Shown one piece after another: positions 4,834 to 15,395 of a stretch of 64,000 bases of DNA. The stretch spans positions 806,001-870,000 of the forward strand of contig NZ_JACHYH010000001.1 in NCBI RefSeq assembly GCF_014192715.1, in the 5' to 3' direction. Position numbers and translations under genes: made by a program. Numbering within the stretch: the first letter of the stretch is position 1; each line of letters begins with the position of its first letter. Below the pieces are notes generated by a model. The model saw only the letters and a list, made by a program, of their open reading frames with translations. It searched no databases and was not told the DNA's origin. The DNA is from Luteibacter sp. Sphag1AF. GTDB lineage: Bacteria; Pseudomonadota; Gammaproteobacteria; Xanthomonadales; Rhodanobacteraceae.

Positions 4834-6297
4834 ATGCCTCTTACCACTGTGCTGCTCATCCTCACTCTCCTGATCGCACTTGCCTGCGTCGGCCTGCTGG
4901 TCATTTTGGTCGGCCGGGGCCGCAACGACGGCGCACTGGTCGAGCGCCTGGAAGCCATGCGAGAAGACAACCGCCGGCTGGAAGCCGCACTGCGCGAAGA
5001 ACAGCGTGCGGGCCGCGGCGAACTGGGCCAGACCTTCGCCCAGTTCCGGGGCCACATGCAGGAACAGCTCACCGCCATGTCGCAGCAGCAGCAGGAGCGC
5101 ATCGAAGGCTTCGGCCGCCGCCTCGACCAGCTGACCGAGCGCACCGACAACGGCCTGCAATCGCTGCGCCTGGGGCTGGCGGACGACTCCCGCAAAACCC
5201 GCGAGGAATCGGCGCTCACCCTCAAGCACTTTGGCGAACTGCTGGACAACCGCTTCACCGCGCTGGGCGCCGAAAACGAAAAGCGCCTGACGGACATGCG
5301 CACCACCATCGAAACGCGCCTCACCGCCATCCAGCAGGACAACGCCAGCAAGCTCGAACAGATGCGGGCCACCGTGGACGAAAAACTCCAGTCCACGCTG
5401 GAAACCCGTCTGGGCCAGTCGTTCAAGCTGGTTTCCGACCGCCTTGAAGCCGTGCAGCGCGGCCTCGGCGAAATGCAGACGCTGGCCGCCGGCGTAGGTG
5501 ACCTCAAGCGTGTGCTGACCAACGTGAAAACGCGCGGCACCTTCGGCGAAGTGCAGCTCGGCGCCCTGCTGGAGCAGATTCTGGTGGCCGAACAATACGC
5601 CGCCAACGTCGCCACCATCCCGGGCTCCGCCGAGCGCGTGGAATACGCCATCCGCCTGCCCGGCACCACCGATGGCGAGCCGGTGTGGCTGCCGATCGAC
5701 GCCAAATATCCCATCGAGGATTACCAGCGCCTGCTCGATGCCCAGGACGCCGCCGATGTTGACGGCGCTCTGGTGGCCGGCAAGGCACTGGAGCTGCGCC
5801 TGCGCGAGGAAGCCAAACGCATTCGCGGCAAATATGTTTCGCCGCCCCACACCACCGACTTCGCGATCCTGTTCCTGCCGACCGAAGGCCTCTACGCCGA
5901 GGCGATCCGCCGACCGGGCCTGTCCGATCAGCTTCAGCGCGACTACCGGGTCACCATCGCCGGCCCCACCACGCTGACCGCCCTGCTCAACAGCCTGCAG
6001 ATGGGCTTCCGGACGCTGGCCATCGAAAAGCGCTCCAGCGAGGTCTGGCAGGTGCTGGCTGCGGTGAAGAGCGAGTTCGGCAAGTTCGGCACGGTGCTGG
6101 AAAAAACCCGCAAGCAACTGGACACCGTGCGCAACAGCATCGACAGCGCGGGCGTCCGCACCCGCCAGATCGAGCGCCGCCTGAAGGGCGTGGAATCGCT
6201 CAGTGCCGACGACAGCCAGGCCGCCCTGGCCCTGCTGCCCGGACTGGACGATGAGGCCAGCCCGGAAGTCCCTGACGATGGCGACGAGTCCAGCTGA
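4834..6297 (+). CDS. rmuC: DNA recombination protein RmuC
   Basis: A 487-residue RmuC homologue. Residues about 4-26 form an N-terminal membrane anchor, and residues about 30-210 form a long charged coiled coil rich in Glu, Arg and Gln. The conserved RmuC nuclease-like domain follows, with the recognisable segments [33 protein letters not shown] and [15 protein letters not shown]. The family limits inversions at short inverted repeats and is related to PD-(D/E)XK nucleases. A TAGACT hexamer at 4803-4808 is a weak -10 candidate. No strong ribosome site is visible, but the N-terminal anchor supports this start. The C-terminus is acidic. Confidence 0.92.
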
Positions 6298-6322
6298 GGG
6301 CCAAAATTCCAGCCACGACAGG

Positions 6323-6328
6323 TACAAT
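6323..6328 (+). promoter_or_regulatory. candidate -10 hexamer upstream of folE
   Basis: TACAAT lies 30 nt upstream of the folE ATG, followed by a GAGGA ribosome site at 6346-6350. There is no convincing -35 at 16-18 nt spacing, so this is a suggestion only. If real, it would also drive the downstream Mks-like genes. Confidence 0.3.
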
Positions 6329-6358
6329 GCCCGTTTATTTTCCCTGAGGATTGCCTCG

Positions 6359-6955
6359 ATGAGCGACGACGCCAAGAAAGGCAGCGTGACCCGCGAGCAG
6401 GCCGAGGAAGCGGTTCGCACCCTGCTGGTATGGGCCGGCGAAGATCCTTCCCGTGAAGGCCTTCTCGATACCCCCAAGCGGGTTGTCAAAGCCTATGGCG
6501 ACTGGTTCGCGGGCTACGCCGTCGACCCGGCCGAGTACCTGCGCCGCACCTTCGAGGAAGTGGCCGGCTACGACGAAATGGTCGTGCTGCGCGACATCGA
6601 ATTTGAAAGCCATTGCGAACACCACATGGCGCCGATCATCGGCCGCGCGCACGTGGGCTACATCCCCACCGACCGCGTCGTGGGCATCAGCAAGCTTGCC
6701 CGCGTGGTCGACGGCTTCGCCCGTCGTTTCCAGGTACAGGAAAAGCTCACCGCTCAGATCGCCCATTGCATAGACGACACCCTGCGTCCCCGTGGCGTCG
6801 GCGTCGTGATTGACGCAAGCCACGAATGCATGACCACCCGCGGCGTGCACAAGCGTGGCGTGTCGATGGTCACCAGCCAGATGCTGGGCAGCTTCCGTGA
6901 AGACCCGCGTACCCGCAGTGAGTTCCTGCGGTTCGTCGGCGTCGATCGTCGCTGA
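6359..6955 (+). CDS. folE: GTP cyclohydrolase I (type IA, zinc enzyme)
   Basis: A 198-residue enzyme that converts GTP to 7,8-dihydroneopterin triphosphate, the first step of tetrahydrofolate and biopterin synthesis. The zinc-site signatures are visible: HCEHHMAP, with Cys at about 86 and His at about 89, and HECMTTRG, with Cys at about 157. [13 protein letters not shown] and the C-terminal FLRFV are also typical. GAGGA sits 8 nt before the ATG. The gene ends 2 bp before the start of the Mks-like operon, an unusual partner that suggests folE heads a four- or five-gene transcript. Confidence 0.96.
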
Positions 6956-6957
6956 CC

Positions 6958-8268
6958 TTGGCCGACGCTACCGACCACTCGCCCACCGACGAACGTCTGC
7001 AGGATCTCTTCCGCGACGGCATCGTCGCTGAAGACCTGCCCAGCGCCTTCCCGCTGCTGCGCGGACGTGCGCTGCTGCGTGCGTTCAGCGCACTGTTCCA
7101 TGGCAGCGAAGCGCAGGTGCTGCTGCGCCTTCTGGTGTTGCGTACGCTGGGCAACCGTTCTCATGCGCCCGAATGGGCACCCCCGGAAATCCGCGAAGCA
7201 CTCGCCTTCGTGGATCCGGTCAAGCTCGACACCGTCGTTCAGCGCCTGAAGGACCACGAACTCCTGGTCTGGGACAGCGAAACCCTGCGCTATCGCCTGG
7301 GTCAACTGGGCCGCAAGGCGCTCGCCGCGCTGGCCACCATGCTGGAATTCGAGCGCGACGATGACGATGGCCTGGGCTATCTCACCGCGCAGCTGGCCGC
7401 CGGTCAGGCCGTGGGTCGCATCTCCGTCGATGAGCTGGGCCATCTGCTATCGCGACTGTCGGAACTGAAAGACGACTTCGACCGCGCGGTGCTTTCCGGC
7501 TCCGAACACCGTATCCGGCGCGCTGCCGAACGGCTGGATTCGGTGTGGACGTGGGTGGAGAAAGGCACCGAAATCGTGTCGCGCATCGGCGAGCAGGAAG
7601 ACATTGATCCTGCCGCTCATCGTCTTGCCCAGGCGGTGGGTCGCGCGCAAAGTGCGCTGCTGCGGCAGGCGGGCACGTTCCAGCGTGAACTCAACAAGAT
7701 CGACCAGCATCGCGTGCACCTGGGTCGCACCGGCCTGTCCTCGTCCGACCTGGTTGGCTGGCTGCGCTCGCTGGATGTGGAAGCGCTGGCGGCACACGCC
7801 GACGGCCAGTCGCTGATGCCGTTGCCCGCGCCATTCATCCACGATCAGATCGCGCTGGACGTTGCCGAGTTCGAACTGCTGGAGCGCGAGCGCGTCGCCG
7901 CTGAAATCACGGCGCTGCCGGATGCGGAGTCCACCCCGGACACCGCCGACCTACCCATGGACGACGAAGACCTGCGTCATCTGGAATCGTGGCATGCCCA
8001 ACTGGCGGCCATCACGGCTCCGGTCACACTGGAATCCACGCTGGTCGGCGACGATTACGCACTGAGTGCGTATCGCCTGTCGCTGCTGGGCCTGCTGGGC
8101 GATCCGGAATCGGCCGCACTGGAAGGTGGCACCGCGGAGCTTGCGCGCCTCCCGCTCGCACTCGACATTGAACCTCATCTCATCGACGTCGATCTCCCCC
8201 GGATCGCGCTGGTCAGCGCCGGACGCCTCGTGCCGCGCGCGCCAAACGGAAAAAAGACCGATGCATGA
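6958..8268 (+). CDS. MksF/JetA-like putative kleisin of an SMC complex
   Basis: A 436-residue acidic, helical protein. The N-terminal ~120 residues look like winged-helix material, with short basic helices and LRYRLGQLGRKALAALA. Amphipathic helices follow (about 130-290), then a more variable tail. No catalytic motif is visible. I infer a kleisin subunit (MukF/MksF/JetA class) mainly from position: first of three overlapping genes whose third encodes an SMC ATPase, in the same order and size series as MksF-MksE-MksB or JetA-JetB-JetC. The start is TTG at 6958, 2 bp after folE stops. No in-frame ATG occurs before about residue 120, so coupling to folE translation is likely. Confidence 0.6.
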   Translation: MADATDHSPTDERLQDLFRDGIVAEDLPSAFPLLRGRALLRAFSALFHGSEAQVLLRLLVLRTLGNRSHAPEWAPPEIREALAFVDPVKLDTVVQRLKDHELLVWDSETLRYRLGQLGRKALAALATMLEFERDDDDGLGYLTAQLAAGQAVGRISVDELGHLLSRLSELKDDFDRAVLSGSEHRIRRAAERLDSVWTWVEKGTEIVSRIGEQEDIDPAAHRLAQAVGRAQSALLRQAGTFQRELNKIDQHRVHLGRTGLSSSDLVGWLRSLDVEALAAHADGQSLMPLPAPFIHDQIALDVAEFELLERERVAAEITALPDAESTPDTADLPMDDEDLRHLESWHAQLAAITAPVTLESTLVGDDYALSAYRLSLLGLLGDPESAALEGGTAELARLPLALDIEPHLIDVDLPRIALVSAGRLVPRAPNGKKTDA

Positions 8269-8980
8269 CGAAACCGCCACCCTGGTGACGCGCCTTCTGG
8301 CGCAGCGCTGGCTGCCGCGCGAAGACGTGCAGGCACGCCGCGCGTTGCTGGACGACACTTTCCGCGAAGAACTGGACCGCCGCCTCGCATCGGTGGGCCT
8401 GGAACTGCGCGAGCACCCCTATGCCGCCTATATCGGCCTGGCCGTTGCGCGCAGCAGCGAACGCGCCGTATTCGGAGGCAGCGACAGCTGGATTTCCAAC
8501 ACGCTGCAACTGGATCGCGATGCCGTCGCGTTGCTGGTGGTGATCTGGGCGTTGATCGTGCTGCCCAAGCGCCAGCGCCAGCTGGAACGCCAGCAGGCAG
8601 AAGCCGACGCATCGCAGACGCAGATGTTCGCTGAAGGCAAACCCATTCCGCGCGATCCGGCCATTGCGCCTGTGATTGCCGAACGCACGCTGCTGGCCGA
8701 TTTCGGCGACAAGCTGGGCGGCAAGATGCGCATCAACGTCAACCTCGGCATGCTGGCGCGCCTGGGCTTTGTGCAGCGGCGCAAGGGCGAAGTGTCCGAA
8801 GGGCCGCTGCTGGACCTGGCCTTCGACTACGACCGCACTGCACGCCGCATTCTGGATGGCGCACTGGGCGATCTGCTGGCCAACACCGTGCCCCGTGACA
8901 CACGGCACGACACCGCCGACGACATGGACGACCTCGACGACCTGACCGAGACGACCGACGAGGAAGTGCACGATGTTTGA
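8261..8980 (+). CDS. MksE/JetB-like putative KITE subunit of an SMC complex
   Basis: A 239-residue protein with the layout of MksE/JetB (DUF4194-like) KITE proteins. The N-terminal helices (TATLVTRLLAQRWL, REELDRRLASVGLEL) lead into a beta segment YAAYIGLAVARSSER, then LDRDAVALLVVIWALIVLPK, and a second winged-helix-like region with LGMLARLGFVQRR. The C-terminus is very acidic. It overlaps the upstream gene by 8 nt and the SMC gene by 8 nt, implying stoichiometric translation. The assignment combines sequence pattern and synteny and has not been confirmed by a profile search. Confidence 0.58.
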   Translation: MHDETATLVTRLLAQRWLPREDVQARRALLDDTFREELDRRLASVGLELREHPYAAYIGLAVARSSERAVFGGSDSWISNTLQLDRDAVALLVVIWALIVLPKRQRQLERQQAEADASQTQMFAEGKPIPRDPAIAPVIAERTLLADFGDKLGGKMRINVNLGMLARLGFVQRRKGEVSEGPLLDLAFDYDRTARRILDGALGDLLANTVPRDTRHDTADDMDDLDDLTETTDEEVHDV

Positions 8981-11780
8981 TATCCGCAGCCTGGAAGTCG
9001 TGCATTGGGACTACTGGCAGCGCTTCAGCCTGCCGCTGGATACCAACATCGTTACCGTGGTCGGCCCCAATGGCTCGGGCAAGACCACGCTGCTCGACGC
9101 GCTGCGCACGCTGCTGACCATCGACTGTGCCGGCAACCGCGACTACAAGAGCTACCTGCGCCACAACGGCAAGCCGTTCGCATGGCTGCGCGCCCGCGTG
9201 GGGAACACGCCGGGCCCCAGCGGTGAGCGTCCGTTCTTCCCGCTGATGGATCGCGAAGTCACCCTCGCCTGCCGCATCCAGAAAAAGGGTGGCGAGTGGC
9301 AACGCCAGTACGCGGTCATGGGTGGCGACGTCAGCATTGATGACATCGAGGCACGTGGCGAATGGCTGGGCCTTCGCGAGTATCGCGTGCGCCTGGAAGG
9401 CGCCGGCCTGTCGCAGGCCATCCGTCGCGTGCTCACGCTGGAACAGGGCGCAACAGACAAACTCTGCCAGATGCCGCCCAAGGCGCTGCTGGATCTGGTC
9501 TTCGACGTGTTTGGCGACAAAGTGGTGCTGGAAGACTACCAGCGCGCGCGCAACGAACAGTTTGAAGCCGACCGCGAACAGCACGACCTCGAACACCAGC
9601 TTTCACTGATTGGCGTCAGCCTGCAGGAAGTGGACGGCCGCACCCGCTCTTTCCAGGAGTGGAACGCACTGAAGCGCGAGCGCGTCGACCTGGTGGCCGA
9701 CGTGTTGCCGCGCACCGAATTCGCCGAACTGCATGGCGGCATCCGTGGCGCGCGTCCGCAACTGATCGGCCTGAAGCGCAAGCGCGACGAGCTGGAGAAG
9801 CGCGACCGCGACATCGAGGCGAAACTGGGCGAACTCGACCTCGCCGAACAGACGCTGCGCAGCGAACAGAACACGGCCGATATCGCCCGTCAGGCCGCTC
9901 GCAAGAGTCTGGACGAAGCTCGCGCATCTCTCACCGAAAACGACCTGCTGCTTCGTCAGGAGACCCGCCTGCGTGAGCAGGTCGCCGCGCAGGGTGGCGC
10001 CGATCACGAGCAGCTGGCCAACGTATTGGTGGAATCGCGCGCAAAGCTCGCGATGCTGCAAACCGACGAAGCCCGGCTGCGCAACGAACTGGCCACGCTG
10101 ACCTCGCAGCTGTCTGCATGGCGCAGTGGCCGCCGCTACACGCCGGAGTTCGAGCAATCGTTCCGCCGTGCGCTGGACGATGCAGGCATCCGCCACAGCA
10201 TGCTCAGCGAGATCGTGGAGATCACCGAGCCGCGCTGGCAGGCTGCGGTCGAAGCCGTGCTGGCGGGCTTCCGCCACGTGGTACTGCTGGACGATCCGCG
10301 TGATCGCGACAAAGCCTGGTCGCTGGGCGAAACCCATCGTTACAAGCATTTCGTCGTCGCCGATCGCGCGCCCGCCACCGGCAAGGTCACGCGCGGCTCG
10401 CTGCTGGAAGTGGTGGACTTCACCGCCGCCGCACCCGAATGGCTGCTGCGCCAGCTTGATCGCATCCAGCGCGTGGACGACGTGGCCGACGGCGCGCGCG
10501 TCGCGAAGGACCAGGACTGGATCACGCCGCAGGGCTACTTCCGCGAACGCCGAGGCGGTCGTCACCTGGGCGTGGACGATGTGTACTTCGGCGCCGCCGC
10601 GCGCGAGCGCCAGTTGGCTGATGGCGAAGCGCGCCTGCAGTCCATCGAAAAGGATCTGCGCGCGTTCGCTGATGCCCGCAAGGAATGGCAGCGAAAAGCC
10701 GGCGATGCCGAAAGCGTGCTGCGCGGCGCCAACGCCAGCGGCCAGCTGGCCGACCGTGCGGACGAGTTTGCCGAAGCTCACGCCCAGCAAGCGGGTCTGC
10801 GTGAAGACATGCAGCGCTGTGCCGACAGCTATGCAGCCGCCGAAGCCCATTACGAAGCCGTGCGCGAACGCCGGGTCAACAACTCGCGGGCGCGCGACAA
10901 CGAAGCGCGCGATCATCGTCAGGTGCAGAACCAGTTGGCCGACAGCGTGCGCATGTACGCCCAGGGCCGCACGGAACAGATCGAACGCCTGAAGGCGATC
11001 CGCGCGCGCCGTGAACACGTGCGCATTGACCAGCGCACGCCCAAGGCCATGGCTGCCCTGCGCGAACGCTATGAATCGCCCGCCGCCGTGCGCCGCGAAA
11101 TCGAACGCATCGAGCGCCGTCTGGAAGAAGGCCATTGGGAAACCGACGCCAGCTGCGTGCCGTTGCGCGACAAGCTCAGCGCCGACCACGAAGGCCTGAA
11201 ACACGATCTGGAGCGTCGCCGCGTGCATCTGGAACGCGCCTCGCGCATCACCAATGAAGCGCGCGGTGCCTACATCCAGGTGCTGCGCAATACCGTGCGC
11301 CGCTATGCCAAGAACCTGAAGGTACTGGCAGAGCTGGCTGGCATCGGCGTGGAAGTGGACCTCCCCGAACTCAGCAACGACGATCTGGCGCTGGCGTCAG
11401 CCGCGCTCAACGTCCGCTTCGAGTTCGACAAGAAAGGCTGGATCGGCATGGATGATGGCGAGGCGTCGGGCGGCCAGCAGGTGATGAAATCATTGCTGCT
11501 GCTCGTGGCGCTGATGCGCGACGAAGATCGTCCCGGCGGTTTCGTGTTCATCGACGAGCCGTTCGCGCATCTGGACATCTTCAACATCGACAAGGTCGGT
11601 GCGTTCCTGAAAACCACCAGCGCGCAGTACATCCTGACGACGCCGGCCACGCATAACGTCAACGTGTTTCAGCCGTCCGAAATTACCCTGGTCACCAGCA
11701 AGCGCCGTCCCGGTGCCACCTGGGCGCAGCCACTGGCCGTGCTGCGCCGCCGCCCGGAAACGGCGGGAGAAACGGCGTGA
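8973..11780 (+). CDS. SMC-family ATPase, MksB/JetC-like
   Basis: A 935-residue SMC-type protein. Walker A is GPNGSGKTT (residues 31-39). Two long charged coiled coils (about 180-395 and 540-770) flank a globular hinge-like region (about 400-540, with ITPQGYFRERRGGRHL). The C-terminal half has the ABC signature SGGQQ (832-836), Walker B FVFIDE (Asp 861, Glu 862) and the D-loop FAHLD. It is much shorter than E. coli MukB (1,486 residues), which fits Mks or Jet SMCs with short arms. It probably works with the two preceding gene products in DNA loop extrusion, chromosome organisation or plasmid restriction. No JetD/MksG nuclease gene follows. Confidence 0.8.
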   Translation: MFDIRSLEVVHWDYWQRFSLPLDTNIVTVVGPNGSGKTTLLDALRTLLTIDCAGNRDYKSYLRHNGKPFAWLRARVGNTPGPSGERPFFPLMDREVTLACRIQKKGGEWQRQYAVMGGDVSIDDIEARGEWLGLREYRVRLEGAGLSQAIRRVLTLEQGATDKLCQMPPKALLDLVFDVFGDKVVLEDYQRARNEQFEADREQHDLEHQLSLIGVSLQEVDGRTRSFQEWNALKRERVDLVADVLPRTEFAELHGGIRGARPQLIGLKRKRDELEKRDRDIEAKLGELDLAEQTLRSEQNTADIARQAARKSLDEARASLTENDLLLRQETRLREQVAAQGGADHEQLANVLVESRAKLAMLQTDEARLRNELATLTSQLSAWRSGRRYTPEFEQSFRRALDDAGIRHSMLSEIVEITEPRWQAAVEAVLAGFRHVVLLDDPRDRDKAWSLGETHRYKHFVVADRAPATGKVTRGSLLEVVDFTAAAPEWLLRQLDRIQRVDDVADGARVAKDQDWITPQGYFRERRGGRHLGVDDVYFGAAARERQLADGEARLQSIEKDLRAFADARKEWQRKAGDAESVLRGANASGQLADRADEFAEAHAQQAGLREDMQRCADSYAAAEAHYEAVRERRVNNSRARDNEARDHRQVQNQLADSVRMYAQGRTEQIERLKAIRARREHVRIDQRTPKAMAALRERYESPAAVRREIERIERRLEEGHWETDASCVPLRDKLSADHEGLKHDLERRRVHLERASRITNEARGAYIQVLRNTVRRYAKNLKVLAELAGIGVEVDLPELSNDDLALASAALNVRFEFDKKGWIGMDDGEASGGQQVMKSLLLLVALMRDEDRPGGFVFIDEPFAHLDIFNIDKVGAFLKTTSAQYILTTPATHNVNVFQPSEITLVTSKRRPGATWAQPLAVLRRRPETAGETA

Positions 11781-12121
11781 TCCGCTCTGCCATCGCCATC
11801 GCCCTGCTGTTTGCGGCGGGCGGCCTGTGCGCCCAGGCACTTCCCGGCAGTCCCGGCGAGTATCTCAAACGCATGGACAGCAACGGCGATGGCAAGGTGA
11901 GCGAGGCGGAATACGTTCAGTACATGAGCGAAGGCTTCCGGCGCATGGACGTCAATGGCGATGGCGTGCTGGACGCCAGCGACGGTCCCATGCGCCCGGG
12001 CGCCCGGCCGGTGCGACTGGAAGACTTCCAGCGCAACCTGATCCGGCAGTTCCATAAGCTGGACCGGAATCATGACGGTTTTCTTAATGCGCGCGAACTT
12101 GTACAACCGCCGCAAGAATAA
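11777..12121 (+). CDS. secreted EF-hand calcium-binding protein
   Basis: A 114-residue protein with an N-terminal signal peptide (hydrophobic residues 2-18, cleavage near AQA) and three EF-hand loops: DSNGDGKVSEAE, DVNGDGVLDASD and DRNHDGFLNARE. The first two have canonical Asp/Asn at positions 1, 3 and 5 and Gly at 6; the third has His at position 4. It probably acts in the periplasm or outside the cell as a calcium sensor or buffer. The GTG start overlaps the SMC stop by 4 nt, so it is in the same operon although its compartment differs from that of the SMC complex. Confidence 0.8.
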   Translation: MIRSAIAIALLFAAGGLCAQALPGSPGEYLKRMDSNGDGKVSEAEYVQYMSEGFRRMDVNGDGVLDASDGPMRPGARPVRLEDFQRNLIRQFHKLDRNHDGFLNARELVQPPQE

Positions 12122-12184
12122 TGCGACCCTGTCGGCATTCTCGTAAGATGTGACTCTTCGCAGGACAACGCGACGGTCGGGGAC

Positions 12185-13543
12185 GTGCGTTTGGACAACC
12201 AGCTCTGGGAAAGCAAATACCACGCGGCGCTTGAGCGCATGGATCGGGAGGCCAGCCAATGGCGCTCGGTCGAAGTGCTGTTGCGTCAGCTGGTGGGCAG
12301 CCTGGGTCAGGTCGCGCGCGGCACCCACGAGGAACTTGAGCCGCATCTGGATGGCGTGGAACATGCCATCCGCGGCATCTACGACGTTTCGATCCTCACT
12401 CCTCTTGTCAGCGGCCTGAGCGACGCGGTTGCTGCCTTGCGGCGCCCCCGGGCCTCCCCTGAAGGATCTTCAGCGGCATCACGCGGTGGCCTCAACGAAA
12501 GCGGCTCCTCCGTCCAGTCGGCCTTGAGCAGGTTGCTGGATCGCCTTCTCGTGGTACCCCGCCTCGCGGAACGCGCTGCCGCTCTGCGCCGGGACGTCGC
12601 CAACGCGGGCAGCCTTGTATCGCTGGCGGCCTGCGGCGAGAAGCTGACTGACCTCATCAACGAACAGCGACTGGCCCTGCAAAAGGAAATCGACGCACTT
12701 CAGTCGATCCTGCGCCACGTCACCGGCCGTCTGGATGAGATGACCCAGTACATGTCCCGGGAGCTGAACGATCAGTCGACAGGGCAATCCCACGGCCATG
12801 CGCTGGAAGCCAGCGTCGCCAATGAACTGCGCCTGCTTGGCGAAGCAGCCGTGGAACTGGAAGACATCGCCGACCTGCGCGTGCAGGTGAACGAGCGGCT
12901 TGATGCCATCGGCGAATGCTTCCGCGAATTTCGCGAACGTGAAGACAACCGCCTCACCGCGTACCGCGAGCGCGCGGAAACGATGCGCCAGCGCATCGAG
13001 CAATTGGAAACCGAACGGGCCACCCTGCAACGTTCACTGGAACGCGAGCACGAACTGGCCCAGACCGACACGATGATTGGCATGCCAAACCGGCTCGCCT
13101 ACGAAAAGCGCATCGAAGCAGCGTTTGAAAACTGGCAGGCAACAGGCCGCAACCTCGCCATTGCCGCCATCGACATCGACCACTTCAAGAGCATCAACGA
13201 CACCTACGGCCACACGGCAGGTGACGCGGTGCTGCGAGTCATCGGCCAGGCGCTGGTAAAGCACGTACGCCCCTGCGATTTCGTAGCGCGCTATGGCGGC
13301 GAAGAATTCATCGTGATCTTCGATGACGCCGATGAAGAAGAGTCGCTGCTGGTCTGCGAGCGACTGCGCGGGAAGATTCAGCACCTGTCCTTCCATGCCA
13401 GCAGGCAGCCCGTGCGGGTCACCGCATCCATCGGTGTGGCGCGTTTCCTGCCCGGCGACAATCCCCGCTCGGTGTTCGAACGCGCCGACCTGGCGCTTTA
13501 CACGGCCAAGAACGGCGGCCGTAACCGTTGCGTGGTGGGCTGA
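12185..13543 (+). CDS. diguanylate cyclase with N-terminal helical region
   Basis: A 452-residue GGDEF protein that makes cyclic-di-GMP. The catalytic motif is GGEEF (371-375). An inhibitory I-site RPCD (362-365) lies exactly five residues upstream, so product feedback inhibition is expected. The substrate-site segments DIDHFKSIND and GHTAGDAVL are intact. The N-terminal ~270 residues are soluble and largely coiled-coil, with no transmembrane segment or recognised sensor domain, so the input signal is unknown. The GTG start at 12185 is preceded by a G-rich stretch; a TTG two codons later is an alternative. TAAGAT at 12144-12149 may be a -10 element. Confidence 0.88.
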   Translation: MRLDNQLWESKYHAALERMDREASQWRSVEVLLRQLVGSLGQVARGTHEELEPHLDGVEHAIRGIYDVSILTPLVSGLSDAVAALRRPRASPEGSSAASRGGLNESGSSVQSALSRLLDRLLVVPRLAERAAALRRDVANAGSLVSLAACGEKLTDLINEQRLALQKEIDALQSILRHVTGRLDEMTQYMSRELNDQSTGQSHGHALEASVANELRLLGEAAVELEDIADLRVQVNERLDAIGECFREFREREDNRLTAYRERAETMRQRIEQLETERATLQRSLEREHELAQTDTMIGMPNRLAYEKRIEAAFENWQATGRNLAIAAIDIDHFKSINDTYGHTAGDAVLRVIGQALVKHVRPCDFVARYGGEEFIVIFDDADEEESLLVCERLRGKIQHLSFHASRQPVRVTASIGVARFLPGDNPRSVFERADLALYTAKNGGRNRCVVG

Positions 13544-15253: not shown

Positions 15254-15395
15254 CGAAAGATGATCCTCAACCACTCCTCCCGGAGTAATGCCCCATGGTA
15301 TCGCGCTGATTCCCCGACAGGCCGACTGGCCGCACAATAGCGGGAGTTCAGCGCCCGGCAACGGCCCGCTTCCCACCCCACCAGTGAGATCTTCG

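Follow-up and report, generated by a model that had tools for sequence, protein, structure and literature searches.

What does a plasmid-cutting complex of the structural maintenance of chromosomes (SMC) family become once its nuclease has gone? The question is raised by a three-gene operon, jetABC, of Luteibacter sp. Sphag1AF (Rhodanobacteraceae), found in a stretch of 64,000 nucleotides (nt) of contig NZ_JACHYH010000001.1 (positions 806,001 to 870,000), hereafter called the window, from a genome of 4.18 Mb in 18 contigs. The operon encodes a kleisin candidate, a KITE protein and an SMC ATPase; jetD, the nuclease gene that directly follows jetC in relatives, is absent at the locus, no copy was found elsewhere in the genome, and the three remaining genes are under strong purifying selection. 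The reading that we favour, with moderate confidence, is that an ancestor bearing JetD lost its nuclease by deletion and that the core was kept as a non-cutting condensin. The genes concerned are the following:

6958-8268, plus strand: jetA/mksF-like kleisin candidate, 436 amino acids (aa), TTG start
8261-8980, plus strand: jetB/mksE-like KITE, 239 aa
8973-11780, plus strand: jetC/mksB-like SMC ATPase, 935 aa
6353-6955, plus strand: folE, GTP cyclohydrolase I (Pfam PF01227, E 9.9e-74), the upstream gene

Both junctions within the operon are overlaps of 8 nt (jetA/jetB at 8261-8268, jetB/jetC at 8973-8980), and jetA starts 2 nt behind the folE stop at 6955, so that the operon is probably transcribed together with folE; a scan for promoter-like sites from 6100 to 12300 gave none, against 0.6 expected by chance. 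The open reading frame (ORF) coordinates and the folE junction thus bear out the arrangement described by the sequence-only reading, an earlier examination of the letters without database searches, namely three genes of 436, 239 and 935 aa overlapping by 8 nt behind folE. Furthermore, folE lies directly 5' of jetABC in every examined Luteibacter or Dyella locus with enough upstream sequence. The order jetA-jetB-jetC is kept in 18 of 20 flanking stretches from related genomes, the remaining two being cut contigs of one genome (G036), and in 76 of 80 named loci (here and below, the best 80 of 326), the other four starting too near the SMC gene. As the SMC gene occurs in all 23 genomes of the genus and the gene order is conserved, the three ORFs are not a chance set.

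The catalytic equipment of the SMC protein is complete, as had been claimed from the letters; its residues were located as follows:

9063-9086, plus strand: Walker A, GPNGSGKT, SMC residues 31-38, invariant in 10 aligned sequences, window included
10197-10493, plus strand: hinge, SMC residues 409-507, mid-protein, weak match below the cut-off (PF06470, E 0.017)
11466-11480, plus strand: ABC signature, SGGQQ, SMC residues 832-836, invariant in the same 10 sequences
11541-11561, plus strand: Walker B with catalytic Glu, SMC residues 857-863 (D861-E862), invariant in the same 10 sequences

JetC therefore shows every part of a Wadjet SMC ATPase, that is Walker A, signature, Walker B and a hinge, the last by a weak match. 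It matches Pfam SMC_N (E 1.8e-15), and its best match in PADLOC is JetC1 (E 6e-20), partly via the coiled coil. It is neither the SMC of SMC-ScpAB, since it scores 99.7 bits against SMC_prok_B for a cut-off of 567, nor a MukB, since the match to the MukB head domain PF04310 (E 0.019) falls short of the cut-off and the protein has 935 aa. MukB has a length near 1,480 aa. A canonical SMC and ScpA are encoded elsewhere in the same genome, so that the jetABC product is an extra complex.

The two partner proteins are more divergent. The 239-aa protein matches DUF4194 below the cut-off (E 0.005), a family matched at E<=0.1 by 18 of the 50 aligned KITE members, the window's included. The best Foldseek matches of its structural model (predicted local distance difference test, pLDDT, 71) are JetABC chains, 8dk1_E from Pseudomonas aeruginosa PA14 and 8as8_C from the Escherichia coli Wadjet, with E about 1e-5 and probability 1.00, as expected of a Wadjet KITE subunit; the model also matches Nse1/MAGE-type chains of Smc5/6 (5hvq, 7dg2). 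The IFDR motif named in PMC10586767 occurs in none of 15 JetB N-terminal starts, with or without JetD. The 436-aa protein has no match in Pfam, NCBIfam or the PADLOC JetA models and no meaningful sequence match in PDB. The ten best Foldseek matches of its model (pLDDT 77; predicted template modelling score, pTM, 0.42) are all chains of MukF, MukEF or MukBEF structures, the best at E 1.7e-3 with a low TM score; on this modelled fold, it is likely, but not firmly, a MukF-like kleisin. A PADLOC search with the kleisin family retrieved scattered unrelated families only, and none of the kleisin, KITE or JetD alignments gave a meaningful match when run as a profile against PDB. Among 50 members of this branch, PADLOC recognises JetA in none and JetB in few (JetB1 in 2, JetB3 in 6, at E<=0.1). 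The operon belongs to a divergent Jet/Mks (Wadjet) branch, of which defence-library profiles miss JetA and nearly always JetB. The kinship with MksFEB and JetABC proposed earlier is supported by the KITE fold of JetB, by the weak MukF-type fold matches and by JetC1 as best PADLOC match. When profile similarity of the first two proteins was looked for, it appeared for the KITE, by the sub-threshold DUF4194 match, and failed for the 436-aa protein, which resembles MukF-type folds weakly.

How does this complex compare with those already described? Kleisin, KITE and SMC in this order without a nuclease, the kleisin by weak fold match only, is the layout of an MksBEF condensin. Indeed, P. aeruginosa MksBEF, likened here by description, is such a nuclease-free set in a genome that also has SMC-ScpAB; SMC-ScpAB and MksBEF are given specialised roles in chromosome packing and segregation (PMC7485682). 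In the present branch, however, JetD-bearing and JetD-less members coexist within one genus. Wadjet type I JetABCD (E. coli, P. aeruginosa PA14) shares the KITE fold, JetC1 and JetD1 as best PADLOC matches and the order A-B-C-(D), but JetD is absent here, and PADLOC misses JetA and barely recognises JetB. The MksBEFG complex of Corynebacterium glutamicum has the same kinds of kleisin, KITE and SMC subunits, with a nuclease that attaches to the kleisin (PMC10123090); unlike the window's complex, it retains this nuclease, MksG, and restricts plasmids.

In JetD-bearing relatives, the first 1-4 nt of jetD are shared with the end of the SMC gene (L039, L040, L042, L046, L154) and its product has 405-420 aa (the first four of these loci). 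The corresponding site in the window is:

11777-11783, plus strand: start site of jetD in JetD-bearing near relatives; in the window the next gene follows at once

The first three of these JetD proteins tested match PADLOC JetD1 with E down to 7e-18. A wider alignment, from which L077 and the cut L113 are left out, holds 26 JetDs, and each of them matches a PADLOC JetD1 model, the best at E 1.3e-18; JetD of this branch has no significant match to a Pfam family. Four JetD relatives share the likely Toprim motifs ENRTSFE and DPDPAG without any difference, and the same motifs form the consensus of the 26; there the first Glu and the first Asp are kept in at least 90%, the second Asp not being listed among these. 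None of this is left in the window: tblastn with the JetD of three relatives against the whole 64 kb gave nothing better than E 0.43. Similarly, 67 regions downstream of jetC in JetD-less loci, a few of them represented twice for the same genome, held no jetD remnant at E<=0.01. Searched for this JetD subfamily and for Pfam JetD_C, the genome of the window gave no match to either. As JetD_C also gives no match in the JetD-bearing genomes G001, G002 and G035, it misses this subfamily, and the subfamily search is decisive. The Toprim nuclease of a Wadjet operon is therefore absent both at the locus and in the genome. The sequence-only reading had described a complex without its nuclease, a description that can now be sharpened, since jetD stands directly behind jetC in relatives and is absent here. 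Its further suggestion of a nuclease encoded elsewhere found no support, the genome having no JetD-subfamily or JetD_C match (unrelated nucleases were not searched).

This bears on a first alternative, in which the complex would still be a plasmid cutter that borrows a nuclease from another locus of the genome. Since MksG binds the kleisin (PMC10123090), such a foreign partner can be imagined, and a JetD_C-family gene does occur in 4 of the 23 genomes of the genus (11 of 61 relatives overall), JetD_C reporting on other Wadjets with a patchy spread. We nevertheless regard a borrowed nuclease as very improbable: beside the lack of any such match in the window's genome, where an unrelated nuclease acting in trans was not searched for, the seven strong JetD matches found in 233 genomes of the family all adjoin jetC, none standing alone, and no single gene replaces jetD in all loci examined. 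A common replacement effector behind jetC was also considered and rejected, as the gene behind jetC varies from locus to locus (EF-hand protein, alcohol dehydrogenase, fructosamine kinase and others); the ORF clustering done for this purpose was too noisy to settle the point.

The distribution of the core and of the nuclease differs widely. Among 61 related genomes, jetC occurs in 27: all 23 of the genus (G007, with a fragment, included), 4 of 14 in the rest of the family and 0 of 24 in other families of the order, the last count resting on a one-protein search, and named loci of Lysobacter, Luteimonas and Pseudoxanthomonas nevertheless exist. Across the family, jetC is present in 53 of 233 genomes and 6 of 26 genera (23 genomes in g1, 19 in g13, which is Dyella, 8 in g14, and one each in g7, g15 and g44). 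A class-wide search found jetC at E<=1e-60 in at least 2 of 369 genomes, both of the window's family, a minimum because no more than two candidates per genome were scored. Several genomes of the window's genus share their SMC with named Luteibacter records. As for the nuclease, jetD is present in 4 of the 23 Luteibacter genomes. The search with this branch's JetD reached 11 of the 233 family genomes at E<=0.001, of which the seven strong ones fall in g1 (4), g14 (2) and g44 (1), with none in g13; the others are weak (7e-9 to 2e-4) and cover the C-terminal part only. Among the 80 named loci, jetD lies directly behind jetC in 28: 21 of 24 in a betaproteobacterial clade, one of the three others (L132) being cut off, and 7 of 56 in Lysobacterales (including Luteibacter, Dyella, Aquimonas, Lysobacter, Luteimonas and Pseudoxanthomonas), where L062 is too short behind jetC to tell. 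Two Rhodocyclaceae loci, L118 and L126, have no JetD within the otherwise JetD-bearing clade and show wider jetB-jetC gaps; L126 extends only 1.2 kb downstream.

Between closely related loci, the loss can be seen as clean deletions of jetD in four pairs: L082/L081, L100/L102, G002/G022 (L154/L032) and G001/G003 (L046/L036). The alignment of L082 and L081 runs to the SMC stop and resumes 1253 and 38 nt past it; for G002 and G022, which are adjacent on the SMC tree, the sequences rejoin at 1206 and 48 nt, and for G001 and G003 at 1239 and 100 nt behind the stop. The lineage of the window shows a wider downstream rearrangement, with an EF-hand gene at once, much as in Dyella. The SMC tree has 93 rows (60 without JetD, 31 with, 2 not known), after 12 same-genome duplicates were merged and the G007 and G036 fragments, G251 and G256 were set aside; L062 and L132, with short downstream sequence, are uncounted, and L096 and L126 (1.1-1.2 kb downstream) are counted as JetD-less. 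On this tree, JetD status changed at least 10 times, 8 of these changes being forced by well-supported branches.

Could JetD instead be an add-on, gained repeatedly by an ancestral nuclease-free condensin? The tree would need these 10 or more changes of status where a history of strict loss requires 22 losses; moreover, JetD evolves faster than the core and the Luteibacter JetD tree is discordant in one place. On the other side, JetD stands directly behind jetC wherever it is found, is present in the 21 of 24 outgroup-clade loci, and has a tree whose main groups recur on the SMC tree, with Luteibacter united and Lysobacteraceae for the most part so, G002 being placed differently and L077 remaining unplaced. 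Repeated gain thus appears improbable to us, and an ancestor with JetD followed by deletions is the history that we prefer.

Is the remaining core still at work? Between the window and its nearest named relative, L. rhizovicinus LP_13_YM, the ratio of nonsynonymous to synonymous substitution rates (dN/dS) is 0.049 for jetC, 0.080 for jetA and 0.088 for jetB; for neighbours in the same pair it is 0.139 (rmuC), 0.125 (a GGDEF gene), 0.148 (the gene at 15288) and 0.039 (folE). JetC is 94% identical to that of this relative, the canonical SMC 95% identical to that of the nearest relative, and the other full-length matches of the genus give 76-82% for JetC and 85-88% for the canonical SMC; jetC is thus nearly housekeeping-like, somewhat less constrained than the canonical SMC. 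In 11 close JetD-less pairs, dN/dS of jetC ranges from 0.026 to 0.085. A decaying relic is rejected on the dN/dS of the core genes. These values also bear on the idea that the core is an inactive defence leftover, a view taken in print of the Wadjet I that lacks jetD in Stenotrophomonas maltophilia. A Wadjet without jetD is said there to be inactivated (PMC11680222), and one metagenome bin of Luteibacter (G017, locus L063, 6001-8793) carries an in-frame TAG near codon 613 of jetC, which marks either a pseudogene or an assembly error. However, constraint of this strength in JetD-less pairs, the invariant catalytic motifs and the existence of JetD-less clades that span a genus, such as Dyella with no JetD in its 19 jetC-bearing genomes, make an inactive leftover barely credible.

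We therefore return to the deletion of a nuclease from a core that was retained. The ancestor would have been a divergent Jet/Mks complex with the plasmid-cutting nuclease JetD; JetD would have been deleted, repeatedly in Lysobacterales, and the kleisin-KITE-SMC core kept. By analogy with its family, this core is most likely still an ATP-binding dimer that works as a motor, extruding or compacting DNA, and it would act as a second, non-cutting condensin beside SMC-ScpAB, like P. aeruginosa MksBEF. The locus lies behind folE in the genus, and among 72,556 plasmid records only 2 hold a match at E<=1e-20, each partial and about 40% identical. ATP-driven loop extrusion is expected from the family, and we infer, with less support and indirectly from a constraint near that of the canonical SMC, that the core works on the chromosome and not on plasmids; the sequence-only reading had already put forward chromosome organisation as a possibility.

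Several observations weigh against this reading or soften it. The kleisin assignment comes from a weak fold match, none of the ten best matches reaching E 0.001, and no experiment on this branch was found in the literature. The dN/dS of jetA and jetB goes up to 0.23-0.24 in the Lysobacter pair L083/L092, and some distant JetD-less pairs reach 0.3-0.4. For jetC the median dN/dS is 0.078 over 28 JetD-less pairs and thus lower than the 0.141 over 14 JetD-bearing pairs (p 0.013), but this comparison includes distant pairs with saturated dS, sets L113 and L119 as JetD-bearing by hand, is confounded with taxonomy and dS saturation, and finds no counterpart in jetA or jetB. A column scan of JetA, JetB and JetC found no position kept with JetD and relaxed without it, except for a single conservative I/V/L site in JetB; the idea of a JetD-docking signature that JetD-less rows would have given up, sought in the same scan, was thus rejected. 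The absence of a core difference by JetD status means either that the core had a JetD-independent job all along or that its job changed without a change in the core. The SMC tree was made by a quick method, and its long branches come together in the outgroup. The JetD of G002 groups with that of G004, its SMC with that of L058, so that some re-gain of JetD by recombination is possible. Finally, the operon has, as sequence identities show, also moved between lineages. In G028 (C1:3225416-3228199), JetC is 75% and folE 80% identical to those of the window but the canonical SMC only 57%, which suggests transfer of a folE-jetABC block; in G035, JetC is 53% against 70% for the canonical SMC, and in G036 51-69% (two pieces) against 79%. 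Vertical descent is hence not general, but inheritance looks vertical in Luteibacter and Dyella, G034 (Dyella) giving 80% for JetC and 81% for the canonical SMC.

The strongest competitor keeps the motor and changes its target: the core would still act on plasmids, uncut, by compacting small circles and so hindering their expression or segregation, as proposed for Smc5/6 and extrachromosomal DNA. As the core sequence shows no consistent difference with or without JetD, a preference for small circles may persist; the KITE model matches the Smc5/6 chains mentioned above, and Smc5/6 has been proposed to compact circular viral DNA (PMC10586767). Yet plasmid restriction in Bacillus subtilis required all four Jet subunits (PMC10586767), and the presence of jetC in 23 of 23 genomes of the genus under SMC-like constraint is unlike the patchy JetD_C (4 of 23). 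We hold plasmid compaction to be unlikely and keep the chromosomal condensin as the preferred reading.

A conserved JetD-less Wadjet I is already in print for Stenotrophomonas: Wadjet I occurs in 82% of S. maltophilia strains, mostly without jetD, with jetABC over 95% alike, and the variant without jetD is called probably inactive (PMC11680222). Compared by description, the S. maltophilia variant resembles the present operon as a conserved jetABC without jetD in Lysobacterales; it differs in lying in an island with RecBCD and in being recognised as Wadjet I (PMC11680222). JetA-D are reported in most Xylella strains (PMC9148166), and an origin of MksBEF, perhaps also of MukBEF, from defence complexes is a review's proposal (PMC10586767). 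No publication was found on Wadjet in Lysobacter, MksB in Xanthomonas or a condensin in Luteibacter, in a search that left subscription literature mostly outside. The present analysis adds evidence that jetD was deleted, finds no copy of it elsewhere and documents how constrained the motor has stayed. It exposes a Jet branch that the PADLOC models miss for JetA and mostly for JetB, and it indicates that 'JetD absent, hence inactive' may be a wrong reading. In these environmental genera (Luteibacter being from soil), nuclease loss can be followed from one species to a close relative: the deletion junctions can be read, and the motor shows no consistent change in sequence. Because this step can be seen between close relatives, the role of a Wadjet motor without its nuclease, chromosome work included, becomes directly testable by comparison, and the Luteibacter locus offers a natural test of a defence machine becoming something else. 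More broadly, and only tentatively, plasmid-defence SMC complexes could be a recurrent source of chromosomal condensins, the Lysobacterales branch having shed the nuclease many times with its motor constrained near the housekeeping SMC. If so, a switch from defence to chromosome would need only one gene deletion, the motor being unchanged.

The immediate neighbour of the operon in the window is:

11777-12121, plus strand: EF-hand protein, 114 aa, with an apparent signal peptide (Pfam EF-hand, E 1.4e-15)

This gene overlaps the SMC stop by 4 nt; its product is not thought to be part of the complex and is taken as a neighbour. In Dyella and L. rhizovicinus, too, an EF-hand gene lies at the SMC stop or no more than about 90 nt away, but in the other Luteibacter stretches examined it is 1.5-4.1 kb further downstream. 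At six other loci, ten neighbour proteins were scanned: besides metabolic enzymes they comprise a LysR regulator, an OmpA-like protein, a GTPase of the EF-G family and a protein kinase, with no RecBCD parts among them. At the place that jetD occupies in L090, the loci L093, L096, L098 and L101 carry a gene of the fructosamine-kinase family (assigned by Pfam in L101; in the others a frame that looks similar by eye). In L046 and L036 (G001 and G003), a two-gene module on the minus strand, encoding proteins of 231-234 and 136 aa, lies beside the site behind jetD or jetC; it resembles what we presume to be a regulator with a PIN-like partner.

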